Positions 3,288 through 34,320 of a stretch of 52,187 nucleotides of DNA are shown one piece after another. The stretch's first letter is position 1. Every line of letters starts with the position of its first letter. Position numbers and translations under genes: made by a program. The stretch comes from Gemmatimonadota bacterium (lineage in GTDB: Bacteria; Gemmatimonadota; Gemmatimonadetes; Longimicrobiales; RSA9). The stretch spans positions 1 through 52,187 of the forward strand of contig JADGQX010000006.1 of assembly GCA_017881445.1 (NCBI GenBank). The letters are read 5' to 3'. The notes under the pieces were generated by a model. It saw nothing but the letters and a program-made list of their open reading frames with translations. It was not told the origin of the DNA and did not search any database.

Positions 3288-4166
3288 ATGCAACTGAGGC
3301 AGCTGCTCCCGCCCGAGCACATCTTCGCGCCGCTGGACGCCCGCACGCTGCGCGAGGCCATCGCGGCCATGGTCGCCGGACTGGCCCGCGCCGGCGCGCT
3401 CCGCGACGCCGGCGTCATGGAGCGCCTGCTGGGCCAGTCGCACTACCGCGTGGTCGTGCCCATCGGCGAGCGCGCTGTGCTGCCCCACCAGCGCACGGAC
3501 GCCGTGGACGAGCTCGTCCTGGCCGTGGGCGTGTCCCCCACGCCCCTGGACGCCGCGGACCTCGGCCTCCACGCCGCGCCTCAGGTCGTCGCCCTCGTGC
3601 TGGCGCCGCCCGAGGCCTCCACCCTCTACCTCCAGACCGTCTCCACCATCGCGCGACTCGTCCGCCGCGACGACATCATCGATGCCCTGGCCGCCGCCCG
3701 CTCGCCCGAGGAGGTGCTGCGCATCGGCGACCTGAGCGATGCCAAGATCCAGCCGTCGCTCACCGTGCGCGACATGATGGGCCACCGGCCGCCCGTCCCT
3801 CCCGCCGCCCCGGTGCGCGATGCCGTCGCCATCATGATCGAACAGCGCGTCAAGGCGCTGCCGGTCGTGGGCGACAAGGGCGAGGTCCTCGGCATCGTCA
3901 CCGAGTGGGACGTCATGCGCGCCCTGCTCCCCCAGGTGCCCCGCGGGGAGGATGCCCAGCCCCAGAACCTTCGCATTCCCGGCGATCTCACCGTCCGCGA
4001 CGTCATGACCCGGTCCGTCCTCTGCATTGCCGAGGACATGGGGCTGGACGAGGTCGCCAACCTCATGCTCAACAAGGACGTCGAGCAGTTCCCCGTCATC
4101 GGGGAGGGCAAGCTCGTCGGCTTCCTCTCCCGCGGGGACATCGTTCGCAAACTCTTCGGAAACTGA
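3288..4166 (+). CDS. PTS EIIA (PtsN-like) domain fused to a CBS-domain pair
   Basis: A 292-residue soluble protein. Residues 1 to about 150 look like a PTS EIIA type-2 (fructose/nitrogen, PtsN-like) domain. The core IGERAVLPHQRTDAVDELVL keeps a histidine, H67, at the place where EIIA domains are phosphorylated. Two CBS domains follow: about 160-220 (TVRDMMGHRPPVPPAAPVRD, then ALPVVGDKGEVLGIVTEWDV) and about 235-292 (TVRDVMTRSVLCIAEDM, then FPVIGEGKLVGFLSRGDIV). CBS pairs usually bind adenine nucleotides. No PTS permease or EI/HPr gene is nearby, so a regulatory role reading phosphorylation and adenylate state is inferred rather than shown. It sits between sucD and ndk in a tight same-strand run. 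Confidence 0.8.
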   Translation: MQLRQLLPPEHIFAPLDARTLREAIAAMVAGLARAGALRDAGVMERLLGQSHYRVVVPIGERAVLPHQRTDAVDELVLAVGVSPTPLDAADLGLHAAPQVVALVLAPPEASTLYLQTVSTIARLVRRDDIIDALAAARSPEEVLRIGDLSDAKIQPSLTVRDMMGHRPPVPPAAPVRDAVAIMIEQRVKALPVVGDKGEVLGIVTEWDVMRALLPQVPRGEDAQPQNLRIPGDLTVRDVMTRSVLCIAEDMGLDEVANLMLNKDVEQFPVIGEGKLVGFLSRGDIVRKLFGN

Positions 4167-4169
4167 CCC

Positions 4170-4592
4170 ATGGATCTGACGCTGACCATCATCAAGCCCG
4201 ACGCCGTCGCGGCCGGCCATGTCGGCCGCATCCTCGCCCTGCTCGAGGAGAAGGGCTTCCGCATCCGCGCACTCCGCCTCATGCACCTCACCGAGCCCCA
4301 GGCGCGCGAGTTCTACGCCGTGCACAGGGAACGGCCGTTTTACGCATCCCTCGTGAAGTTCATGACTTCCGGCCCCTGCATCCCGGCCGTGCTGCAGAAG
4401 CCGGGCGCCGTGGCCGCGCTGCGCGAGGCCATCGGCGCCACCGACCCCGCCGAGGCCGCGCCCGGCACCGTCCGCGCCCTCTACGCCGAGTCCAAGGAGC
4501 GCAATGCTATCCACGCGTCCGACTCGGACGCGAACGCCGTGCGCGAGGCGGGTTTCTTTTTTGCCGAATCGGACGTGCTGGCGGCGGAGTGA
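4170..4592 (+). CDS. ndk: Nucleoside diphosphate kinase
   Basis: A 140-residue cytosolic enzyme that equilibrates the NTP and dNTP pools by a phospho-histidine ping-pong mechanism. It begins MDLTLTIIKPDAV, the family start, and contains RNAIHASDSDANAVREAGFF with the catalytic His at residue 115. It differs from common Ndk by FMTSGPCIPAVLQKPGAV in place of the usual GPVVAMVLEG stretch and by GTVRALYA in place of GTIRGDF. All catalytic features remain. It lies 3 nt after the EIIA-CBS gene and appears to end the sucCD transcription unit. Confidence 0.95.
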   Translation: MDLTLTIIKPDAVAAGHVGRILALLEEKGFRIRALRLMHLTEPQAREFYAVHRERPFYASLVKFMTSGPCIPAVLQKPGAVAALREAIGATDPAEAAPGTVRALYAESKERNAIHASDSDANAVREAGFFFAESDVLAAE

Positions 4593-4633
4593 CCTTTCCC
4601 CCCGGCCACAAGCTGTGCGGCAGGCGCATCCGG

Positions 4634-4662
4634 TTGACAGGGTAGGGGAAAACGGGCATCTT
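4634..4662 (+). promoter_or_regulatory. Candidate promoter of the DUF177-rpmF-plsX-fab operon
   Basis: A perfect TTGACA (4634-4639) is followed after 17 nt by CATCTT (4657-4662), a weak -10 match. Transcription would start near 4669, almost on the ATG at 4671, which has no visible Shine-Dalgarno sequence. The first gene may therefore be read from a leaderless mRNA. Confidence 0.45.
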
Positions 4663-4670
4663 TCTCAGCT

Positions 4671-5180
4671 ATGCTGAAAGTCGATCTGGGCCGCCTGGAC
4701 CGGCTGCGGCGGCTGCGGCTGGACGACGAGGTGGCACCGGACGATCCGATCTGGGCGGGCTCGGGGCTCAACCTGGCCCGCCCGCTCGATGTCCGCCTCG
4801 AGGTGCAGCAGGTCGGCCACGACGTGGTGGTCCGCGGGAGCGTGGCGGGTGAGGTGGCGATGGACTGTCGCCGATGCCTGTCGCCCGTGCGTGTGCCGGT
4901 CGGCGAGGAGATCGCCGTGCTGTACCAGCCGGGCGTGACCCGGACGGAGGCGGAGGAATCGGAAGTGTACCCGCTTCCGGAGCGGGGGCGCGAGCTGGAC
5001 CTGTCGGAGATGGTGCGGGAGCAGGTGATGCTGGCGGTGCCGGCGTACGCGAGCTGCACCGAGACGTGCCGGGGACTGTGCCCGACGTGCGGCAAGAACC
5101 TGAACGAGGGAGCATGCGCCTGCGAGCCGGCGGTGGGGGACGACCGCTGGGGGGCGCTGCGCAAGCTGAAGTCCGAGTGA
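4671..5180 (+). CDS. DUF177 / YceD family protein
   Basis: A 169-residue protein of the YceD (DUF177) family, which almost always precedes rpmF and is linked to 23S rRNA or ribosome homeostasis in other bacteria; its exact activity is unsettled. Visible features are MDCRRCLSPV in the middle and the C-terminal zinc-ribbon-like CTETCRGLCPTCGKNLNE with CAC close behind, which is typical of the family. The ATG at 4671 has no ribosome-binding site and may be leaderless. It is the first gene of the fatty-acid operon. Confidence 0.85.
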   Translation: MLKVDLGRLDRLRRLRLDDEVAPDDPIWAGSGLNLARPLDVRLEVQQVGHDVVVRGSVAGEVAMDCRRCLSPVRVPVGEEIAVLYQPGVTRTEAEESEVYPLPERGRELDLSEMVREQVMLAVPAYASCTETCRGLCPTCGKNLNEGACACEPAVGDDRWGALRKLKSE

Positions 5181-5192
5181 GGAGAGGGATCA

Positions 5193-5378
5193 ATGGCGGT
5201 ACCGAAGAGACGAGTTTCGAAGCAGCGCAAGCACAAGCGGCGGGGCGAGCACAAGGCCGAGGTGGTGAATTACGCCGCCTGCCCGAAGTGCGGTGACCCC
5301 AAGCTGCCGCACAGGGTCTGCCGCAACTGCGGGTACTACAACGGCGAGCAGGTCCTGAAGATCGAAGACGAGATCTAG
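5193..5378 (+). CDS. rpmF: Large ribosomal subunit protein bL32
   Basis: A 61-residue basic ribosomal protein. It has the usual N-terminus [17 protein letters not shown] and a zinc-binding ribbon, [20 protein letters not shown]. This is the four-cysteine form rather than the zinc-free paralogue. The GAGGAGAGGG ribosome-binding site is strong. It is placed between DUF177 and plsX as in many phyla, linking ribosome and membrane-lipid synthesis. Confidence 0.96.
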
Positions 5379-5396
5379 CCCCTCGGAGGCAGCCCG

Positions 5397-6404
5397 TTGC
5401 GCATTGCGCTGGACGCCATGGGGACGGACCTCCATCCGAGGGTGGAGGTCCAGGGAGCGGTCGAAGCGCTCCGCCAGCTGCCGGGCGATTTCGAGGTGCT
5501 GCTGGTCGGTGACCGGGCCCTCGTCGAGCGGGAGCTGGCGACGTACGGCGACTACCCGAAGGCGCGGCTGCAGGTGGTGCCGGCGTCACAGGTGATTGCG
5601 CCCGGCGAGCCCGCGGCCGCGGGCGTGCGCCGCAAGCCGGACTCCTCGATCGTGGTGGGGCTGACGCTGCAGCGGGAGGGGAAAGCGGACGCTTTCGTGA
5701 GCGCCGGCTCGACCGGCGCGGTCATGGCGGCGTCCCTTTTCATATTGCGGCCGTTGCCGGGAGTGGACCGGCCCGCGATCGCCACGCTCCTGCCCACGGT
5801 CTCGGAGCCGGTGCTGATGCTGGACTCCGGGGCGAACGTGGACAGCAAGCCCCACCACCTGCTGCAGTTCGCGCAGCTGGGCATGGTGTACGCCACGGAC
5901 GTGCTGGGGCGGGCGGAGCCGCGAGTGGGGCTGCTGAACATTGGCGAGGAGCCCGAGAAGGGAAACGAGCTCTCCGTGGAGGCGCACCGCATCCTGGCGG
6001 ACAGCGGGCTGAACTTCGTGGGCAACGTCGAAGGGCGGGACGTCATCAGGGGCGTGTGCGACGTGTTGGTGACGGATGGCTTCGTCGGCAACGTCCTGCT
6101 CAAGTTCTACGAGTCCGTGGCCGGCTTCGTATGCCAGGTGGTGACGGGAACGGAGCCGCCGGCGCCGGGGAAGGCTCCCTCGAAGCTCTGGGAGGCGCTG
6201 GACTACACGACGTATGGCGGTGCGCCGCTGCTGGGGGTGAACGGCGTGTGCATCATCTGCCACGGCGGCTCGCCCCCGGTGGCGATCCGCAACGCGATTT
6301 CGACGGCCATCCAGGCCGTCCAGGCGAACATAGTGGGACATATTCAGCAGCAGATGGCCGGCGGGAAGGTTGTCGGTGAGCGTCGGCTGGCGGGGGGCGC
6401 ATGA
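5397..6404 (+). CDS. plsX: Phosphate acyltransferase PlsX
   Basis: A 335-residue peripheral membrane enzyme that turns acyl-ACP into acyl-phosphate for PlsY, the first step of phospholipid synthesis. The start is TTG, with GGAGG 7 nt upstream, giving MRIALDAMGTDLHP, close to the family's usual MxIAlDaMGGD. Other landmarks are AFVSAGSTGAVMAAS, RPAIATLLPT, MLDSGANVD, GLLNIGEEPEKGNEL and CDVLVTDGFVGNVLLK. Its stop overlaps the fabH start in an ATGA, so the two are translationally coupled. Confidence 0.95.
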   Translation: MRIALDAMGTDLHPRVEVQGAVEALRQLPGDFEVLLVGDRALVERELATYGDYPKARLQVVPASQVIAPGEPAAAGVRRKPDSSIVVGLTLQREGKADAFVSAGSTGAVMAASLFILRPLPGVDRPAIATLLPTVSEPVLMLDSGANVDSKPHHLLQFAQLGMVYATDVLGRAEPRVGLLNIGEEPEKGNELSVEAHRILADSGLNFVGNVEGRDVIRGVCDVLVTDGFVGNVLLKFYESVAGFVCQVVTGTEPPAPGKAPSKLWEALDYTTYGGAPLLGVNGVCIICHGGSPPVAIRNAISTAIQAVQANIVGHIQQQMAGGKVVGERRLAGGA

Positions 6405-7393
6405 AGGAACCGAAGCCGATCGTGGAGATCGCGGCGACGGGGCGGTGGCTGCCGGAACGGGTGGTGACGAACGCCGACCTGGAGAAGGAGCTGGACACGT
6501 CGGATGCCTGGATCCGGGAGCGGACAGGCATCCGCGAGCGGCGCATCGCGGGGCCGGAGGTCGGGGCCGCGGATATGGGCGCCCGCGCGGCTCGCATTGC
6601 CATGAAGCGCGCCGGCGTGCACGCCGGTGAGATCGATTTCATCATCGTGGCTACGGCGACACCGGACCGGCTTCTGCCCTCCACGGCCTGCGACATCCAG
6701 GCGATGTTGGGGGCGACGAACGCGGCAGCGTACGACATTTCGGCCGCGTGCTCCGGCTTCCTCTTCGCCATGGAAATCGCCGAGGGGCACATCGCGGCCG
6801 GTCGGGGCGACCTGGCGCTGGTGATCTCCACCGAGAAGATGACGGGCATCGTCGACTGGACCGACCGCTCCACGGCGGTGCTGTTCGGCGACGGCGCGGG
6901 CGCGGCGCTAGTGCGGCGCTCCTCGAACGGCCGGGGAGTGATGTCGAGCTACATCCGCTCGGATGGCACGCTGGCGGAGCTGCTCTGGCGTCCGGCGGGC
7001 GGAGTGCGGATCCCCATGGATGCGGGGGTGCTCGAGCGCAGGGACCACCTGGTGAAGATGGCCGGGCGCGAGGTCTTCAAGCACGCGGTGAAGGCCATGG
7101 CGGATGCCGCGGACCAGGCGCTGGTGCGCGCGGGACTCACGGGCGACGATATCGACCTGTTCATCCCGCACCAGGCCAACATGCGCATCATCGAGGCGAC
7201 AGCGAAGTTCGCCAAGATCCCCATGAGCAAGGTGTACATCAACGTCGACCGCTACGGCAACATGAGCTCGGCCACGATCCCCGTCGCGCTCGACGAGGCG
7301 CTGGAGCAAGGCCGGATCGGGCCGGGCGACAACGTGCTGATGGTCGCGTTCGGCGCGGGCTTCACCTGGGCTTCCTCGGTGGTGCGGTGGTAG
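6401..7393 (+). CDS. fabH: Beta-ketoacyl-ACP synthase III
   Basis: A 330-residue thiolase-fold enzyme that condenses acyl-CoA with malonyl-ACP to start fatty-acid chains. The catalytic triad is visible: C117 in ISAACSGF, H257 in PHQANMRI and N287 in YGNMSSATIP. The N-terminal TSDAWIRERTGIRERRI is the family signature. Length is normal. The start overlaps plsX by 4 nt and the end overlaps fabD by 7 nt. Confidence 0.97.
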   Translation: MKEPKPIVEIAATGRWLPERVVTNADLEKELDTSDAWIRERTGIRERRIAGPEVGAADMGARAARIAMKRAGVHAGEIDFIIVATATPDRLLPSTACDIQAMLGATNAAAYDISAACSGFLFAMEIAEGHIAAGRGDLALVISTEKMTGIVDWTDRSTAVLFGDGAGAALVRRSSNGRGVMSSYIRSDGTLAELLWRPAGGVRIPMDAGVLERRDHLVKMAGREVFKHAVKAMADAADQALVRAGLTGDDIDLFIPHQANMRIIEATAKFAKIPMSKVYINVDRYGNMSSATIPVALDEALEQGRIGPGDNVLMVAFGAGFTWASSVVRW

Positions 7394-22526: not shown

Positions 22527-23636
22527 TCAGGGGAAGTAGATGACGGCGTGGCGGACGCCGGCCGCGTCCGCCGCCTGGGCCGCGACGACGCCGCGGGCAT
22601 TCACGCCGCCCGCCTGTGACCAGGTTCCGCCGAGTCCGGGCATCTCGATCATGCCGCCGGCGAGCGTCCAGCGGAACGAGCGTCGCTCGCCGAGGGCGTT
22701 CTCGGCCCAGCCGTAGACGTCATGGTGCACCCCCACGGCCCAGGCGATGCTGTTGCGGCCGCCGAGCGTGCCGAGGTCGATGATCCCGGTGTCCTCGCTC
22801 CAGAAGAACGCATGCGTTGCCAGCCTGCCGGCCAGGCCGGCGTTGCCTGGGGGCCCAGGCGACACGAACGGCTCCAGCTCCGAGTGGCCGACGACGTCGC
22901 CCAGGGCGTTCATGGCGAGCGCGAACGCACTGCCTCCGAGCGAGGGCAGCAACGTCATTCCGCGCTTCGGGTCCCACAGGAAGGCGCGTCTGTCGCAGCA
23001 TCTGACGGTACGGTCCGTCCAGCCGATGACGCGGCCCCGGTTGTCGATGGCCGTGGCGCCCGAGCGTAGGCCCGGACCGAGCGAGGGTATCTCCGCCAGC
23101 CCATCCCGCCGGGACCAGACGAACGCCGTCTGGGTCGAGCCCGGGGCCAGCGCGCTGCGGCTGCCGACCACGGCGCCCGCCTCGTTGATGCCCCATGCCT
23201 GGGACGAGTGCGCCGCATCGTCGAGGTTCTCGAACCCGCCCTTCGCGGTCAGCAGCACGGCTCGAGTGACGTTCGGCGTAGACGTCGGGACCCAACCCGT
23301 CAGGTCCCCACGGTTGTTCTCCCGGAGCACCTCGAACAGCTGGCCCCCGAAGTCGCCGAGGTCACGCATGCCGTCGTGGGCGTCCCAGGCGAAAGAGCGC
23401 TGGGCGGCGCCGCCGCCGTACCGCCCGACGACCGTGCCCGGATCGTTGATCTCGAACGCCTGCGCCTGGTCGGCGCCGAACGTGCCCACATCCAGGATGC
23501 TGTAGGCGACCTCGCCGCCGGCGGCGGCTGCCAGCGCGCTCGCCCGATTCGGAGCGACCGCCCGGTCCTCTGCGCCGCAGGCCGCGAGCGCGGCCGTGAG
23601 CGCCAACATCCCCAGCTGCAACGCAACCCGTCTCAT
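22527..23636 (-). CDS. HAF-repeat exported lipoprotein
   Basis: A 369-residue protein. A lipoprotein signal ends in LAAC with the lipidated cysteine at residue 20. The rest is about six to seven HAF-type repeats of roughly 45-50 residues, each like FxWd...GmxdLGxxGG...A..IN..G.VVG (for example [19 protein letters not shown] and [20 protein letters not shown]). Such repeats form beta-propeller-like surface proteins of unknown function. The ATG at 23636 has a GGAGGTGCC ribosome-binding site directly before it. Attachment is to the inner or outer membrane; nothing here identifies a partner. Confidence 0.85.
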
Positions 23637-23892
23637 GGCACCTCCGTCGGTGAAGGGATGCGCGACTGCACCGCGGCGGCCGGGCCGCCTCCGGCGACGG
23701 GCCGGCAGGCGCGGAATGGTCCAGGGCAATCCTGGCGAGGAGGCTCCCGCCGAGGCGCTTCACGCGCGGGCCGGGGTGCATGAGCACGGCGGCGGCGGCG
23801 CGGCCCGCGGACTTGTTCCCCCACGCCCGCGCCCGTACGTTCCGGCACGGTGCCAGGCGCTTGAGGCAGACTGCCACGGAAGGAAGCAAGTC

Positions 23893-24471
23893 GTGTTGCT
23901 GGTTATCGATAACTACGATTCCTTCACCTGGAATCTCGTCCAGTTCCTGGGCGAGCTGGGGGCTGACCCGGTGGTCCGCCGCAACGACGAGGTCACCCTC
24001 GACCAGATCGAGGCGATGCACCCGGAGCGGATCGTGATCTCCCCCGGGCCGTGCACGCCGGCGGAGGCGGGCGTGAGCGTGGACGTGGTGCGCCGTTTCG
24101 GCGCCGGCACGCCGCTGCTGGGCGTGTGCCTGGGGCACCAGTCGATCGGCGAGGCGTACGGGGCGCGGGTCGTGCGTGCACGCCGGGTCATGCACGGGAA
24201 GGTTTCGCCGGTGCGGCACACCGGCGTGGGCCTCTTCGAGGGGCTGCCGACACCGCTGGCGGTGACGCGCTACCATTCCCTTGTGATCGAGCCGGGGTCG
24301 CTCCCCGATGACCTGGAGGCGGTGGCGTGGACGGACGAGGCGGGGTGGGAGGACGAGATCCAGGCGGTGCGCCATCGGCAGCACCCGGTGTGGGGCGTGC
24401 AGTTCCACCCGGAGTCGATTGCCAGCGAGGGCGGCAAGGCGCTGCTGGCCAACTTCCTGGCGACCGGCTGA
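23893..24471 (+). CDS. pabA: Glutamine amidotransferase of anthranilate/aminodeoxychorismate synthase
   Basis: A 192-residue class-I glutamine amidotransferase that hands ammonia to TrpE or PabB. It begins [20 protein letters not shown] and has the triad C79 ([14 protein letters not shown]), H172 and E174 ([14 protein letters not shown]). A GGAAGG ribosome-binding site lies upstream of the GTG at 23893. No trpE, pabB or trpD is beside it, so whether it serves tryptophan, folate or both cannot be decided. The following gene begins 2 nt after its stop. Confidence 0.93.
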
Positions 24472-24473
24472 CG

Positions 24474-26102
24474 GTGTACCCGGTCACGCGCCTGCGGGCG
24501 GGGCTCTCCCGCGGCCGCTCCCTTCGCGGCGTGCGGCAGGCCGGTCGGGGCCGGCCCTTTCCCCGCGCCCGCGTCCTCGTCCGTGCGGCCGCCCTGGCGG
24601 CGCTGGTGCTGGCCGCCGCGCTGCCCGCGCGCGCGCAGCAGGTGACGTTCTCGGGGCGCGCGGACCCGGAGCTGGACCGGCACATCGCCGCGCTGCTGCG
24701 CTCGGACCGCTACACCCTGCTGGCGCGGGACACCACCATCCGCGCCGGCGACACGCTGCGCGGCCCGGTCCTGGCCCCGGGAATCAAGCTCCGGCTCGAT
24801 GGCACGGTGCAGGGGGAGCTGATCGGCGTCGCCTCGGACCTCTTCCTCCATCCCACGGCGGTGGTCACGGGGGAGGTGGTCAACGCCGGCGGCGGGCTCT
24901 ACCCCGCGACGCGAGCACAGCTCGGCGGCACCGTGGACCGGCCGCTGGCGCGCTATACCGTCACGCGGGAAGGGCCGGCGATCCGCATCCGGGCCAGCGG
25001 TCTGGCCGGTCCCACCCTCGCGCTCGATCCCTTCAGCGGGATCCACCCGCCGCAGTACGACCGGGCCGATGTGCTCTGGTTGCAGGCGGGTGCGGGGCTC
25101 CGGCTGCCGGCGCCCGAGGCCCTCGACTCCGCGCGACTGCACCTGGTAGGCGGCTACCGAACGGGCGCGCCCGGCGCCACGTACACGGCTGACCTGCAGC
25201 TTCACCGAGGCCGGTACACGCTCCTCTTCGGGGGCGAGCGGCTCACCGCCACGCAGGATCTCTGGATCCGTGGCGACCTGGCCAATACGCTGGCGTTCCT
25301 CGCCTCCGGGTCGGACTACCGCGACTATTACGATGTGCGGCGGTTCTTCGGCTTCGTCGCCCGGGACTTCGATGCCGGGCGCTGGGGCGGGCACCTGGCG
25401 CTGCGCGCGGGCCGGGAGCAGGACCTCTCGCTGCGGGCCCACGACCCCTGGGCCCTGTTCCGGCCCGACTCGCTCCGGCCCAACCCCGGGGTCGCGGAGG
25501 GGGTCATCAGCTCCGCGGGCGCGGAGGTGGTCGTGGGCTGGACCGGCGCCAGCGCCAACTTCGTGGTGGGGGGCGAGCTGGAGGCCGCGGGCCGGACCCT
25601 GGGCGGGGACTTCGCCTTCGGTCGGTACCTGACCTGGGGGCGCGCCAACATCCAGGCGCTCTGGACTCACACGCTCACGGTCGAGTGGCACGTGCGCGGC
25701 CCGCTGCCCGGCACCGACTCGCTGCCGCGCCAGCGCTGGTCTCACGTCGGCGGCGGCGGCACCCTGCCCACCTTCCCGGTCCAGCGCTTCCCCGGCGACC
25801 GCCTCGCCTTCGTCTCGTCCGAGTACGTCATGCCCCTGCCCCGCGCCCTGGCCCTTCCGCAGCTGGGCCCCCCCAGGCTGGTCATCCTCCATGCCGCGGG
25901 CATGAGCTGGACCCGCGGCGGCAGTGCCACCCTCGAGCAGAACCTGGGCCTCGAGCTGCGCGTCATGGGGCTTTCGGTCAACGTCATGACCAATCCCGCT
26001 AACGCGCGCCACGACCTGCGTTTCGGCGGTGGGCTGGGCTTCAATACGGGGCGGGGCGCGGCGGCGCGACCCTACTTTGACACGCGCGCCGCGGAGCGTT
26101 AG
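24474..26102 (+). CDS. Exported protein: bactofilin-like segment plus probable beta-barrel region
   Basis: About 542 residues. A signal peptide is visible (hydrophobic core 37-50, cleavage after ARA at 54), but its N-terminal arm is unusually long, so the true start may be downstream of the GTG at 24474. Residues about 82-155 (DTLRGPVLAPGIKLRLDG, GELIGVASDLFLHPTAVVTG) look like the repeated beta-helix turns of polymer-forming bactofilins. Residues about 180-542 are rich in alternating strands with aromatic and arginine residues, ending LGFNTGRGAAARPYFDT, which suggests an outer-membrane beta-barrel. Family membership is unrecognised. It lies 2 nt after pabA but is unlikely to share its function. 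Confidence 0.65.
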   Translation: MYPVTRLRAGLSRGRSLRGVRQAGRGRPFPRARVLVRAAALAALVLAAALPARAQQVTFSGRADPELDRHIAALLRSDRYTLLARDTTIRAGDTLRGPVLAPGIKLRLDGTVQGELIGVASDLFLHPTAVVTGEVVNAGGGLYPATRAQLGGTVDRPLARYTVTREGPAIRIRASGLAGPTLALDPFSGIHPPQYDRADVLWLQAGAGLRLPAPEALDSARLHLVGGYRTGAPGATYTADLQLHRGRYTLLFGGERLTATQDLWIRGDLANTLAFLASGSDYRDYYDVRRFFGFVARDFDAGRWGGHLALRAGREQDLSLRAHDPWALFRPDSLRPNPGVAEGVISSAGAEVVVGWTGASANFVVGGELEAAGRTLGGDFAFGRYLTWGRANIQALWTHTLTVEWHVRGPLPGTDSLPRQRWSHVGGGGTLPTFPVQRFPGDRLAFVSSEYVMPLPRALALPQLGPPRLVILHAAGMSWTRGGSATLEQNLGLELRVMGLSVNVMTNPANARHDLRFGGGLGFNTGRGAAARPYFDTRAAER

Positions 26103-26149: not shown

Positions 26150-29436
<3,287 letters not shown>

Positions 29437-29444
<8 letters not shown>

Positions 29445-30039
29445 GATGATTCCGGGCGACGTCGCCCGCAGGATTCGCTGCGTTCTCCTCGACGTGGACG
29501 GCGTCCTCACGGACGGCGGCGTCTACGTGGGCGAGACCGACGACGGACGGGTCGTGGAGCTGAAGCGCTTCGACATCATCGACAACGTGGGCGTGCACAT
29601 GCTGAAGCAGGCGGGGATTCGAGTGGCCATCGTGAGCGGCCGCGTATCCCCCGCCACGCGGGTGCGGGCGGAAGAGCTCGGCATCGAATGCGAGCAGCAG
29701 GAAGGCGGCTTCAAGCTGCAGGCCGCGGCGGAGCTGGTCCGCAGGCACGGCCTGAGCTGGGAGGAGGTGGCGTTCCTGGGAGACGACATCCCGGACGTCG
29801 CCATCCTGTGTCGCGTGGGGCTGCCCGTGGTCGTGGCCAACGCCTCCGCTGAGGCCCGCGCCGTCGCCGCGTACCAGACGCGTCGCAGCGGAGGCCGGGG
29901 CGCGGTGCGGGAGCTGGCCGAAGTGCTCCTGCAGGCGAGCGGCGAATGGAACCGCCTGATGGAGGAGTACCTGGTGGAGCGCGATCCCGAGCGCGCCCCG
30001 GGCGGACCCGCGGCCCCGGCGAATGCAGCCGGTGCTTGA
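29437..30039 (+). CDS. kdsC: 3-deoxy-manno-octulosonate-8-phosphatase
   Basis: A 200-residue HAD-family phosphatase. The catalytic aspartates D19 and D21 lie in LLDVDGVLTDGGVYVG; later motifs are IVSGRVSPATRVRAEELGI, GFKLQAAAELV and VAFLGDDIPDVAILCRVGLP. GTG at 29437 is chosen because GGAGGT ends 5 nt before it; ATG at 29446 is the alternative. It overlaps kdsA by 8 nt and kdsD by 17 nt. The C-terminal 25 residues (a proline/alanine-rich tail) are longer than usual. Confidence 0.92.
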
Positions 30040-31021
30040 GACGCCCGCCGCCCTCACGGGCGAGGCGCTGCTGGAGCGCGCCCGGGCCGTGCTCGTGGCG
30101 GAGGCCGAGGCGGTGGCGTCCCTCGCCCCGCGCCTGGGCGACGACTTCCTGGAGGCGGTGCGCCTGATCGCGGAGTGCGACGGGCGCGTGATCGTGAGCG
30201 GGGTAGGGAAGAGCGGGCTGGTGGCCCGCAAGATCGCCGCGACGCTCACCTCCACCGGCACGCCCGCCGTGTTCCTCCACGCGGTGGAGGGGTTGCACGG
30301 CGACCTGGGCATCGTCGGTCGCGGCGACGTGGCTGTGCTGGTCTCCAAGAGCGGAGAAACCGAGGAGCTGGGCGGGCTGGTGGAGTACCTGAGCCGGCTG
30401 GGCGTCAGCATCGTGGCCATGCTGGGCCGAGGCGCCTCGAGCATCGCCCGGGCCTCCCGCGTGGTGCTGGATTGCTCGGTGGTCCAGGAAGCGTGCCCGT
30501 TCGACCTGGCGCCCACGACCTCCACCACGGCCACCCTGGCCATGGGTGACGCGCTGGCGGTGGCGCTCCTGCTGCGCAAGGGCTTCAGCCGCGAGGACTT
30601 CGCCCGGCTGCACCCGGGCGGGGCACTGGGCCGCAAGCTCACGCTGCGCGTGCGGGACCTGATGATCGGCGAGGGCGCGCCCTGCCTGGGCGCCGGCGCC
30701 ACCATGCGCGAGTGCGTGGTGCTGCTGGCGGAGAAGCGCGGCACCGTTCCCATCGTGGAGGGCCCGGAGCGCCGCATCGTCGGGGTAGTGACGGCGGGCG
30801 ACCTGACCCGCCTCATGGAGCGCGAGGACGATTTCCTCGGGCGCGCCGTCGGCGACGTCATGAATCGCGCCCCGAAAACGATCTCACCGGAGGCGCTGGC
30901 CGCCGCGGCCGTCTACCAGATGGAGACCCACGGCATCATGGCCTTGCCCGTGGTGGACGACGAGCGCCGGCTGCTCGGGATCGTGCACCTGCATGACCTT
31001 TTGCGTGCCGGCGCGGTATGA
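30023..31021 (+). CDS. kdsD: Arabinose-5-phosphate isomerase (SIS + CBS)
   Basis: A 332-residue isomerase that converts ribulose 5-phosphate to arabinose 5-phosphate, the first step of Kdo synthesis. The SIS domain (about 40-175) has SGVGKSGLVARKIAAT and VLVSKSGETEELGG. Two CBS domains follow (about 212-265: VRDLMIGEGAP and VPIVEGPERRIVGVVTAGDL; about 277-332: VGDVMNRAPKTISPEAL and LPVVDDERRLLGIVHLHDL). No ribosome-binding site is visible, and the start lies inside kdsC, so translation is coupled. GutQ or KpsF are related names. Confidence 0.94.
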   Translation: MQPVLETPAALTGEALLERARAVLVAEAEAVASLAPRLGDDFLEAVRLIAECDGRVIVSGVGKSGLVARKIAATLTSTGTPAVFLHAVEGLHGDLGIVGRGDVAVLVSKSGETEELGGLVEYLSRLGVSIVAMLGRGASSIARASRVVLDCSVVQEACPFDLAPTTSTTATLAMGDALAVALLLRKGFSREDFARLHPGGALGRKLTLRVRDLMIGEGAPCLGAGATMRECVVLLAEKRGTVPIVEGPERRIVGVVTAGDLTRLMEREDDFLGRAVGDVMNRAPKTISPEALAAAAVYQMETHGIMALPVVDDERRLLGIVHLHDLLRAGAV

Positions 31022-31028
31022 TGGAGCT

Positions 31029-31574
31029 ATGAGAACGAAATCTCTCTGGGCCGTCCTGGCGGGCGCCACGCTGGCCGCGTGCGGCGGAGGCGGCACGGGG
31101 CCGCGAGCTGCGGACCTGTACCGCGACCTGCCCGCCGACTACGTGATGCTGGACGTGAACCACTACCTCACCGACGACGGCGTACGGCGTGGCATCCTGA
31201 ACGCCGACACCGCCTTCGTGTATGTGGACTCGGCGACCGTGGACCTGCGCAAGGTGCACCTGCTGCTCTACGGCACCGACGGGAAGGATGCCGCGGACCT
31301 GGTCTCGCGCACGGGCAAGCTGAACCAGCGCACCAGTGCCATGGTCGCGCGCGGTGCGGTGGTGCTGGTGGCGAAGAACACCGGCGACCGCATCGAGACC
31401 GAGGAGCTGCACTACGATCCCAACATGCACAAGGTCTGGAGCACCGTGCGTACGGTGCGCATCCAGAACGGCAACCGCGTCACCGCCGATGGCTTCACGG
31501 CGGACGACCAGATGCGGAACGTGGAGATGACGCGGCCGCGCGGCCAGGTGCAAGGATTGAAGGTGACGTTCTGA
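31029..31574 (+). CDS. lptC: LPS export protein LptC, lipoprotein form
   Basis: A 181-residue protein. A signal peptide ends LAGATLAAC, a lipobox with C18, so it is probably a lipoprotein rather than the membrane-anchored LptC of enterics. The rest is a beta-jellyroll of the LptC/OstA type (YVMLDVNHYLTDDGVRRGIL, TEELHYDPNMHKVWS, RVTADGFTADDQM). In the Lpt system it links the LptB2FG extractor to the LptA bridge. It follows kdsD after 7 nt, and its stop overlaps the next start (TGATG), supporting the pairing with lptA. Confidence 0.85.
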   Translation: MRTKSLWAVLAGATLAACGGGGTGPRAADLYRDLPADYVMLDVNHYLTDDGVRRGILNADTAFVYVDSATVDLRKVHLLLYGTDGKDAADLVSRTGKLNQRTSAMVARGAVVLVAKNTGDRIETEELHYDPNMHKVWSTVRTVRIQNGNRVTADGFTADDQMRNVEMTRPRGQVQGLKVTF

Positions 31575-33112
31575 TGCGCCGTATCTCGCTGGTATGCATG
31601 ATGATCGTGGCCCCGGCCGCGCTGGCGATGACGGCGGGTTCGGCCCGGGCACAGGATTGCAGCACGGCGGCCGGACACTCGACCACGCTCAACGGGGGCA
31701 CGCCCGCGGAGCAGACGTTCCTGAGCGGGGGCGTGACCTTCACCTGCCAGGACGGCAAGGTGGTCCGATCGGACAGCGCCGTAGTGGTGCAGGCCGCCCA
31801 GCAGCAGTTCCTCATCGGGCACGCATATTACTCCGACAAGGAGAAAATGCTGACCGGTGATCGGATATACTACTGGGGCAAAGACAAGCACCTGACGGCG
31901 CAGACCGGCGTCGTGCTGACGGACAAGGTGAACGGTGCCGTGTTCCACGCCGAGTTCCTGGACTACTACCAGCCGCGGCCGGGGCAGCCCGAGTCGAAGG
32001 GAACCCTCTACGGCGTGGGCACGGGTGGCCGGCCACACGCGGTGTTCCGAGGCAAGACCGCCGCGGCTACGGCGGCCCGGCCGGCTGCTGCGCCGGGCAA
32101 GCCGGCGGCTCCCGCGGACACCGCGGCGACGCTCGTGGACGCCGACCGCATGGAGATCCAGGGGCAGAAGACGTTCCACGCCATGGGTAACGTGGTGCTC
32201 ACCCGCGCGGACATGCGGGGGACCGCGGAAGAGGCCTTCTACTCGCCGGACGACGAGCACCTGAAGCTGAGCGGCAGCGCCAAGATCACGGGACAGGAGT
32301 TCTCGCTCGCGGGCGGGGTCATCGATGGCACGCTGGCGGGCAACCAGTTCAAGGACGTGACCGCCACCTTCCGCGCGGTGCTGGACGCCAAGGACCTGCA
32401 CGTGAAGGCGCCATCGCTCACGGTCGCCTTCGATTCCGGGCAGGTGCGGCGCCTGATCGCCCTCTCGGCCGAGCGCTCGAAGCGCACGGCCACGGATGGC
32501 AACGTCCTGGCGGAGGCGCTCGCGCAGGACTTCCGACTCACCGCCGACTCCATTGACGCGCTCGCGCCCAAGCAGAAGATCGAGCGCGTGGTCGCCGTCG
32601 GCCGGGCCTACGGCGAATCGCAGAACGATTCGATCAAGGTGAAGATGCCGGACATCGCGTCCAAGGACTGGCTGCGGGGCGACACCATCACCGGTTTCTT
32701 CGCCGACGCCAAACCCAAGGCGGGCGCCCGCGTCGCGCCCCGCAACGGGCGCAGCGCCACGTCCACCGCCAGGCCCGCCGACCGGCCGCCAGCCGGCGCC
32801 GCCGCGGCGCCTGCGGACACCGTCGAGCGGGTGCTGGAGCGGATCGTCGCCGTGGGCAGCACGCCGCCGGCCAGCTCGATGTATCGCATCGTGGACCAGA
32901 AGAAGCCCGCCGCGGCCCCGGCGATCAGCTACCTGCTGGCCCAGCGGATCACGGTCGCCTTCCGCGATGGCCAGGTGAGCGAGGTGCGCGCGGAGGGCGA
33001 GATCCGCGGCATCCACCTGGAGCCCCAGGAGAAGAAACCGGCGAAGAAGGCGAGTCCCGCGGACAAGAACGTGGCGCAGGCGCCCAAGCCTGCCGGGAGC
33101 AAGCGGCCGTGA
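31574..33112 (+). CDS. lptA: LptA/OstA-like LPS transport protein (large form)
   Basis: A 512-residue periplasmic protein with a signal peptide (about 1-26, ending SARA). It contains tandem OstA/LptA-type jellyroll stretches: SGGVTFTCQDGKVVRSDSAV, then GDRIYYWGKDKHLTAQ, and later VDADRMEIQGQKTFHAMGNV, then FYSPDDEHLKLSGSAKI. It is two to three times longer than enteric LptA (about 185 residues), so it probably forms a longer bridge segment. Linkers near 165-185 and 395-420 are alanine/proline-rich. No LptD beta-barrel follows. It overlaps lptC by 1 nt and lptB by 4 nt. Confidence 0.8.
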   Translation: MRRISLVCMMIVAPAALAMTAGSARAQDCSTAAGHSTTLNGGTPAEQTFLSGGVTFTCQDGKVVRSDSAVVVQAAQQQFLIGHAYYSDKEKMLTGDRIYYWGKDKHLTAQTGVVLTDKVNGAVFHAEFLDYYQPRPGQPESKGTLYGVGTGGRPHAVFRGKTAAATAARPAAAPGKPAAPADTAATLVDADRMEIQGQKTFHAMGNVVLTRADMRGTAEEAFYSPDDEHLKLSGSAKITGQEFSLAGGVIDGTLAGNQFKDVTATFRAVLDAKDLHVKAPSLTVAFDSGQVRRLIALSAERSKRTATDGNVLAEALAQDFRLTADSIDALAPKQKIERVVAVGRAYGESQNDSIKVKMPDIASKDWLRGDTITGFFADAKPKAGARVAPRNGRSATSTARPADRPPAGAAAAPADTVERVLERIVAVGSTPPASSMYRIVDQKKPAAAPAISYLLAQRITVAFRDGQVSEVRAEGEIRGIHLEPQEKKPAKKASPADKNVAQAPKPAGSKRP

Positions 33113-34320
33113 GCGACGCCCAGGATCTGACTCGATTCGCGGAGCGGCTTCGCCCCCACGAGGCGTCGGTCGGCCTGGCCCTGCTGGAGCTCGTGCGCCG
33201 AGCGGACGAGGATGGCACGGTGGACCGGGGCGATTGGCTGACCGCCGTTCGCCACGCCTATGCGGTCTCCATGCCGCGCTCGGGCTCCTTCGGCAGCGGG
33301 TCGGACCCGATCCCGGCGGAAGAGCTGCCGCGCTACCTGCAGGAACAGGTGCTGGCCCGCCTCACCGCCGAGGCCCTGGCCGTGGCCGAGCCGGCCGCCG
33401 ACGACTGGGACAGAGTCCGCTTCGACCGGGCAATCTGGGCCTCCGTCCTGCCGCGGCGGCACGAGATTCTTGCCGAGCTGGACGGCACGGTCAGGAACTT
33501 GCTTGCAGAGGGTCGCCGCCTGGCCGAGGGGCCGACCGAGGCCGAGAAGCACATGCCGGGCAGCACGCTGGAGGCGCGCCACCTGGTGAAGGTGTTCCGC
33601 AAGCGCAAGGTGGTGAACGACGTGGACGTCCGCGTCTCCCAGGGCGAGATCGTGGGCCTGCTCGGGCCCAACGGCGCCGGCAAGACGACGACGTTCTACA
33701 TGATGGTCGGGCTCATCCAGCCCAACGCGGGCGAGGTCTACCTGGACGAGCACGAGCTGACGGATGTGCCGATGTTCAAGCGGGCGCGAGCGGGGATCGG
33801 CTACCTGGCGCAGGAGCCCTCTATCTTCCGCCGGATGACCGTCGAGGAGAATATCCTGGCGATCCTGGAGACCATGCCGTTGCCGCGAGCCGCGCGGAAG
33901 GCACGACTGGAGCGGCTGCTGGACGAGCTGGGGCTCAAGCACCTGCGGGGTGCCCGCGCATACTCGCTCTCCGGCGGCGAGCGCAGGCGGCTGGAGATTA
34001 CCCGGGCGCTGGTGAGCGAGCCCAAGTTCATGCTGCTGGACGAGCCCTTTGCCGGGGTGGACCCCATCGCCGTCCACGACATCCAGCAGATCGTCGCCGG
34101 ATTGCGCCACCGCGGGATTGGCGTGATCATCACGGATCATAACGTGGAGCAGACTCTGGACATCGTGGACCGGGCCTACATCATGTACGACGGTCGCGTG
34201 CGCGTCTCCGGTACCGTGCAGGAGCTCGTCTGGAACGACGAGGTGGCCGAGATCTACTTCGGTCCCACCCTGACGGCGCGGATGCGCGAGCGCTACCGCC
34301 GACCCGAACTCGTAGTGTGA
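33109..34320 (+). CDS. lptB: LPS export ABC transporter ATPase LptB with N-terminal extension
   Basis: 403 residues. Residues about 152-403 are a complete LptB: Walker A GPNGAGKT (186-193), YLAQEPSIFRRMTVEENI, signature SLSGGERRRLEI, Walker B FMLLDEPFAGVDP and the switch ITDHNVEQTL, then YIMYDGRVRVSGT. Residues 1-148 are an additional, mainly helical region (for example ERLRPHEASVGLALLELVRR) with no family I recognise; normal LptB is about 240 residues. An internal ATG at 33553 would give a standard LptB, but the frame is open throughout and the GTG at 33109 overlaps the lptA stop. It powers LPS extraction with LptF/LptG, which are not in the window. Confidence 0.9.
   Translation: MSDAQDLTRFAERLRPHEASVGLALLELVRRADEDGTVDRGDWLTAVRHAYAVSMPRSGSFGSGSDPIPAEELPRYLQEQVLARLTAEALAVAEPAADDWDRVRFDRAIWASVLPRRHEILAELDGTVRNLLAEGRRLAEGPTEAEKHMPGSTLEARHLVKVFRKRKVVNDVDVRVSQGEIVGLLGPNGAGKTTTFYMMVGLIQPNAGEVYLDEHELTDVPMFKRARAGIGYLAQEPSIFRRMTVEENILAILETMPLPRAARKARLERLLDELGLKHLRGARAYSLSGGERRRLEITRALVSEPKFMLLDEPFAGVDPIAVHDIQQIVAGLRHRGIGVIITDHNVEQTLDIVDRAYIMYDGRVRVSGTVQELVWNDEVAEIYFGPTLTARMRERYRRPELVV

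Follow-up and report, generated by a model that had tools for sequence, protein, structure and literature searches.

A predicted outer-membrane protein of Gemmatimonadota in which a bactofilin-like solenoid precedes a divergent Omp85-type barrel

Outer-membrane assembly centres on Omp85 barrels, and in BamA and TamA the POTRA domains stand ahead of the barrel. Bactofilins are normally cytosolic scaffolds. What kind of protein, then, arises when a bactofilin-like stretch is exported and joined to a barrel, and what might it do beside genes for Kdo-LPS synthesis and export? We addressed this for P0001, a protein of 542 residues encoded in a 52,187-nucleotide stretch of DNA from a Gemmatimonadota bacterium (the window). 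From sequence and profile comparisons, P0001 is very probably an exported outer-membrane protein, consisting of a divergent Omp85-superfamily barrel and, at the POTRA place, a helix followed by a short bactofilin-like beta-solenoid.

The gene, its export signal and its neighbours

The P0001 frame is open on the plus strand from a GTG at 24474 through the stop at 26102 (24474..26102) and starts two bases past the stop of a trpG/pabA-type glutamine amidotransferase gene on the same strand (23890..24471; NCBIfam TIGR00566 above cut-off). The true start may be a second GTG of the frame, at 24531, from which 523 codons run with the stop counted (522 residues), since a signal peptide that begins there is nearer the length in the orthologues. 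We aligned 30 orthologue loci, the window's own included, and one paralogue; the resulting alignment A1 has 29 rows and omits L029, cut by a contig end, the paralogue fragment L002 and the paralogue L032. A long mechanical frame of 580 residues lies on the minus strand opposite the gene, and the conservation in the alignments is that of the plus-strand protein. The gene is real, since the same protein aligns in all 30 loci. A1 contains 22 invariant columns, 20 of them in the barrel half.

Read by eye, the signal peptide region covers residues 1-54 (24474..24635, plus strand) and ends in A-x-A|Q, with cleavage expected after A-R-A and before Q55. At least 90% of the A1 rows keep A54 and Q55, which agrees with the original prediction of an exported protein, and the presence of the signal peptide disfavours a cytosolic location.

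The genes downstream of P0001 all lie on the plus strand and match their families above cut-off. They are kdsB (26150..26944; NCBIfam TIGR00466), followed by pyrG, kdsA, kdsC, kdsD and lptC in this order (26941..31574; NCBIfam PyrG, KDO8P_synth, KdsC-phosphatas, kpsF and LptC_YrbK), and an lptA-like frame with lptB (31079..34320; Pfam LptD_N and NCBIfam LPS_export_lptB). LptD_N is the LptA/LptD N-terminal domain and matches in the lptA-like frame. By these family assignments, the P0001 gene sits in a Kdo-LPS operon. The mechanical start of the lptA-like frame at 31079 overlaps lptC in another frame, and the true start is later. The frame (31079-33112) looks long for LptA, the LptA-type domain occupying only residues 356-415 of its mechanical extent.

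This arrangement recurs among the 40 loci fetched for synteny, which were hand-picked from the matched loci and are not a random draw: in 35, kdsB follows on the same strand within 1.5 kb, while xerD lies upstream in 37 and trpG upstream in 29. The exceptions for kdsB are L111, L119, L137 and L150, where none was found in the stretch, and L117, where it is 5.6 kb away. In the window, a gene for a predicted exported protein (22527-23729, minus strand; DUF3466 above cut-off) stands in reversed orientation between xerD and trpG.

A solenoid at the POTRA place of an Omp85-type barrel

The Omp85-type beta-barrel, assigned by profile homology and alternation, covers about residues 193-525 and starts from a P-x-Y-D/N-R motif (25050..26048, plus strand). 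Strong alternation was found in 27% of columns 181-542, whereas 500 shuffles averaged 11% and never exceeded 23%, and the analysis gave 22 peaks from residue 171 onward, which are not a count of strands, of which Omp85 barrels have 16. P0001 alone has no match to Pfam Omp85 (PF01103), and just one of the 29 orthologues matches it directly, at 0.16. The same genome encodes a paralogue of 565 residues, L035:3883-5577, which has the layout of P0001 and exceeds the Pfam Omp85 cut-off (45 bits vs 24). It aligns with P0001 over most of the length, with a BLASTP E of 2e-13 in this comparison alone, and a search of the genome with the A1 profile recovers it at 1e-35, over profile positions 5-409 of 500. 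The profiles of the orthologue and paralogue families align with a probability of 100 and an E of 2e-46 over 449 columns, spanning solenoid and barrel. Within the paralogue family, 20 of 22 members match Pfam Omp85 at E<=0.1 (best 2.3e-15), and the family profile matches the solved POTRA-domain protein 9ccg at 2.8e-8, with the best stretch near the C-terminus. Because the paralogue passes Pfam Omp85 and the profiles of both families align, we read the P0001 barrel as a divergent Omp85-type barrel, a membrane barrel whose homology to Omp85 is reached transitively, via the paralogue.

The barrel-like C-terminal part of the original prediction is thereby substantiated, by alternation above all 500 shuffles and by Omp85 profile homology. 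Structure prediction, which had been suggested as a check, returned the helix and solenoid in residues 55-166, but in the full-length AlphaFold2 model, built on a two-sequence alignment, the barrel had a pLDDT of about 20-30 and was not resolved, so that its assignment rests on homology. That no described family was recognised is borne out insofar as P0001 passes the cut-off of no model in Pfam or NCBIfam, but not for the barrel, which is kin to the Omp85 superfamily.

In a tree of the barrels, 49 orthologue-group tips split from the 22 paralogues with a local support of 0.997; given this split, the non-monophyly of the paralogues on the rooted tree is taken as a rooting artefact. Members of the paralogue family share the solenoid-barrel layout and include L035 (contig C250 of the same genome) at 3883-5577 and L032 at 4827-6563; in both loci the gene follows a presumed sigma54-type response regulator and a presumed sensor kinase-like gene. 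The A1 profile also found two barrels in the same genome with other N-terminal parts, L039 (C19; 1.2e-11) and L040 (C159; 4.4e-8). Five of the 29 orthologues match DUF5686 (PF18939) at E<=1, the best at 1.4e-4, whereas P0001 itself has no match; L039 matches that family at 4.4e-7, under cut-off.

Ahead of the barrel, no POTRA family was among the Pfam families listed for the 29 orthologues (E<=1) or the 22 paralogues (E<=0.1). The region instead contains a predicted helix at residues 65-77 (24666..24704, plus strand), present at about the same place in the full-length model, and a bactofilin-like beta-solenoid at about residues 86-144 (24729..24905, plus strand), identified from a weak Pfam match, hhalign and AlphaFold2. 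The family comparisons thus support a bactofilin-like solenoid at the usual POTRA place. For residues 55-166, AlphaFold2, given two sequences (P0001 and its L032 counterpart), produced a helix followed by stacked short strands with a mean pLDDT of 76.3 and a pTM of 0.71 in the best model, in which a beta-helical core, a feature of bactofilins, is predicted; two of the five models were good (pLDDT 76 and 70) and three poor (38-40).

The match of P0001 to Pfam Bactofilin (PF04519) is weak (E 0.29; 11.9 bits, below the cut-off of 27.9) and spans about half of the profile (2-47 of 98). It is shared by 16 of the 29 orthologues at E<=1 (best 0.0016) and by 14 of the 22 paralogue-family members at E<=0.1 (best 6e-5). 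Aligned by hhalign with a set of 32 bactofilin fragments from 32 loci, two of which (L033 and L036) are the same gene of the window's own genome, the orthologues scored 36.0 (48 columns) and the paralogues 44.8 (69 columns). The maxima of 100 column shuffles each were 18.6 and 23.6, but reversed columns still scored 28.4 and 33.0, and much of the bactofilin signal therefore reflects generic solenoid or repeat periodicity. With shuffles low and reversed columns still scoring, the presence of a solenoid in the N-terminal part is well supported and its descent from bactofilins only moderately so. Matches to the N-terminal model in fold searches were mostly assorted low-score solenoids and some plainly unrelated folds, none convincing (best VIA Z 6.0, 4kh3; best Foldseek E 0.03, SV2A), and no bactofilin was among the matches listed; against solved structures, the A1 profile placed a carbonic anhydrase solenoid (0.083) before the bactofilin 6ria (weak, E 0.39). 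The bactofilin-like beta-helix of the original prediction is recovered, as weak Pfam matches and a predicted solenoid within residues 55-166.

P0001 resembles the Omp85/TpsB proteins in its order of signal peptide, N-terminal module and C-terminal barrel, the last homologous by profile and with a paralogue passing PF01103, and differs in having a solenoid and no detected POTRA. The excerpted text of Heinz and Lithgow (2014, PMC4104836) distinguishes ten Omp85/TpsB subfamilies by their N-terminal parts, POTRA-less ones included; the superfamily comprises BamA, TamA, PlpD, FhaC and the 'noNterm', WD40 and metallo subfamilies, and a bactofilin-like module is not named among the subfamilies in that excerpt. 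The terms 'Gemmatimonad' and 'polymer-forming' are absent from the paper's main text. At least one POTRA domain is the criterion for Omp85 in the excerpted text of PMC11116518, on PlpD, whereas that of Heinz and Lithgow has no such requirement. A pairing of Omp85 with bactofilin was not found in the literature searched, which consisted partly of excerpts and had most subscription papers outside its scope. The combination of a solenoid with an Omp85-type barrel is unusual; the Omp85 kind of barrel itself is known.

Lid-lock residues and the mode of action

According to the excerpted text of PMC4490367, the L6 tip carries (V/I)RG(Y/F) and strand 13 carries (F/G)xDxG; these are the two most conserved motifs of the Omp85 family, and a salt bridge joins them. 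In our alignment, the L6 position of P0001 reads GGGGTLPTF in place of ...(V/I)RG(Y/F) (25749..25775, plus strand) and the strand-13 position LHAAGMSW in place of (F/G)xDxG (25887..25910, plus strand). At the aligned positions, none of the 29 orthologues has the L6 arginine and none the strand-13 aspartate, a further difference from the Omp85/TpsB proteins. The paralogues have an LPGY-type L6, with proline for arginine in 22 of 22, and keep the strand-13 aspartate in 20 of 22. As a control, we searched nine other Omp85-like regions of the same genome, each read from where its Pfam match begins until the frame ends; by this pattern search, which is not an alignment, RG(Y/F) stands at an L6-like place in eight (the exception being L046) and (F/G)xDxG occurs in all nine.

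The loss of both lid-lock residues in all 29 orthologues, with most of the other regions in the genome keeping both, argues against ordinary activity of the BamA/FhaC type. An active outer-membrane insertase or translocase like BamA or TamA, whose solenoid would present unfolded clients by beta-augmentation, would fit the homology to Omp85 barrels, but the missing residues and the motifs retained elsewhere in the genome make it an unlikely account of P0001.

As a mechanism, we tentatively propose an accessory outer-membrane biogenesis factor, expressed with the Kdo-LPS synthesis and export genes and working by solenoid docking with no gated cycle. The barrel would sit in the outer membrane with the solenoid hanging in the periplasm, a position predicted from the Omp85 layout. 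The exposed beta edges of the solenoid would dock a periplasmic partner or client and so do the docking job of POTRA, while the barrel, having neither lid-lock residue, would go through no gated BamA/FhaC cycle and would more likely hold or organise its partner at the membrane. The sequence comparisons themselves show the export signal, the order of the domains, the homology, the loss of the motifs, the synteny and the lack of the module or of the whole gene in some relatives. We infer an outer-membrane location, a periplasmic solenoid and an accessory envelope role tied to LPS supply, with docking and not gated insertion. For the explanation as a whole, architecture and mechanism together, we lean slightly in favour. 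A shared operon neighbourhood does not prove a common pathway.

The same genome spans a series from Omp85-like proteins that keep both motifs, through a paralogue that has lost one of the two residues, to P0001, which has lost both. Together with the presence or absence of the solenoid at one locus (below), this series offers a natural comparison for the contributions of the L6 lock and the periplasmic module. P0001 would also be a case of a bactofilin-like module at work outside the cytoskeleton.

Spread of the gene and alternative roles

A protein search of 61 genomes, the window's own and 60 relatives, matched 38 at E<=0.001, its own included; a single-sequence search for related loci led to one locus. 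When 395 genomes of the phylum were searched with the profile, 279 were matched at 1e-15 (106 of 138 genera), with orthologues and paralogues counted jointly and no more than three candidates scored in each genome; this provides the phylum spread that the original prediction had left to a homologue search. At least 19 of the matches listed begin at profile position 127-160 and are possible solenoid-less forms. Three of them were fetched (L147, L148 and L149); each fills the same xerD-trpG-X-kdsB slot with a barrel that has no solenoid, and each has a signal peptide when read by eye. In the barrel tree they nest in a nine-member clade (support 1.0), the other six members of which align over the solenoid; because barrel-only forms nest among solenoid-bearing members, the solenoid was probably lost in their line.

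No match to the gene was found in nine genomes of a related family (f2), and kdsB is present in all nine. In these, kdsB, pyrG, kdsA and kdsC are near each other, and lptC is found in eight of the nine stretches. In six (L184, L187, L188, L189, L190 and L192), no more than about 200 bases separate trpG from kdsB, and no family member stands between them; the gap is about 800 bases in L191 and about 5 kb in L186, and the L185 stretch contains no trpG. Other f2 genomes gave weaker matches of paralogue strength. A general requirement of the LPS genes for P0001 is ruled out, since these nine genomes keep them with no match. With three syntenic relatives having no solenoid and nine genomes having no gene yet retaining kdsB and its neighbours, P0001 looks accessory.

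The accessory docking role has to be weighed against a reading near the original prediction, in which the barrel is passive, porin-like or structural, and the solenoid serves as its plug or anchor. The loss of the signature motifs is in line with this, as are the barrel-only forms in the same slot, where the barrel persists although the module is absent. The crowding of invariant columns into the barrel half (20 of 22) and the strongly kept operon position (35 of 40) are more than we would expect of a general pore, and we find the passive barrel improbable.

P0001 might also be a partner in LPS transport, its solenoid stacking on the LptA/LptC bridge and its barrel assisting or guiding LPS insertion beside LptD. 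LptD is an outer-membrane barrel with a periplasmic beta-rich N-terminal domain, a layout that P0001 resembles, and the gene order with kdsB, pyrG, kdsA, kdsC, kdsD, lptC, lptA and lptB would agree with such a partnership. The likeness to LptD and LptD_2 is confined to this layout and to the encoding with LPS genes here, however: no LptD family is among the Pfam matches of P0001, and LptD_2 was matched in 39 of 41 genomes, the window's own included (C54). PF04453 was matched in one of the 41. Seven of the nine f2 genomes that have no P0001 gene were in the LptD_2 set, and all seven have LptD_2. P0001 as a substitute for LptD is thus ruled out by the 39 genomes, and since the nine f2 genomes also retain LPS genes without P0001, we consider the partner role quite unlikely.

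On a more far-reaching interpretation, a widespread, vertically inherited Omp85 branch would have swapped POTRA for a bactofilin-derived solenoid and lost the lid lock, by half in the paralogues and fully here, giving a new class of outer-membrane docking barrel tied to Kdo-LPS production that would work unlike BamA, TamA, FhaC or LptD. This is possible but doubtful.

That P0001 is a polymer scaffold of the bactofilin type, relocated to the periplasm and held there by its barrel, is highly improbable: the Bactofilin matches of both families and the predicted solenoid, with its short hydrophobic repeats, speak for it, but only 48-69 columns align to bactofilins, and P0001 is exported, lies under the Pfam cut-off, matches about half of the profile, has a helix before and a barrel after its shorter solenoid, and has three syntenic relatives with no solenoid at all. 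The genome also encodes a separate bactofilin, its only one above the Pfam cut-off (L036, on contig C46), which stands downstream of a presumed ParB-like gene.
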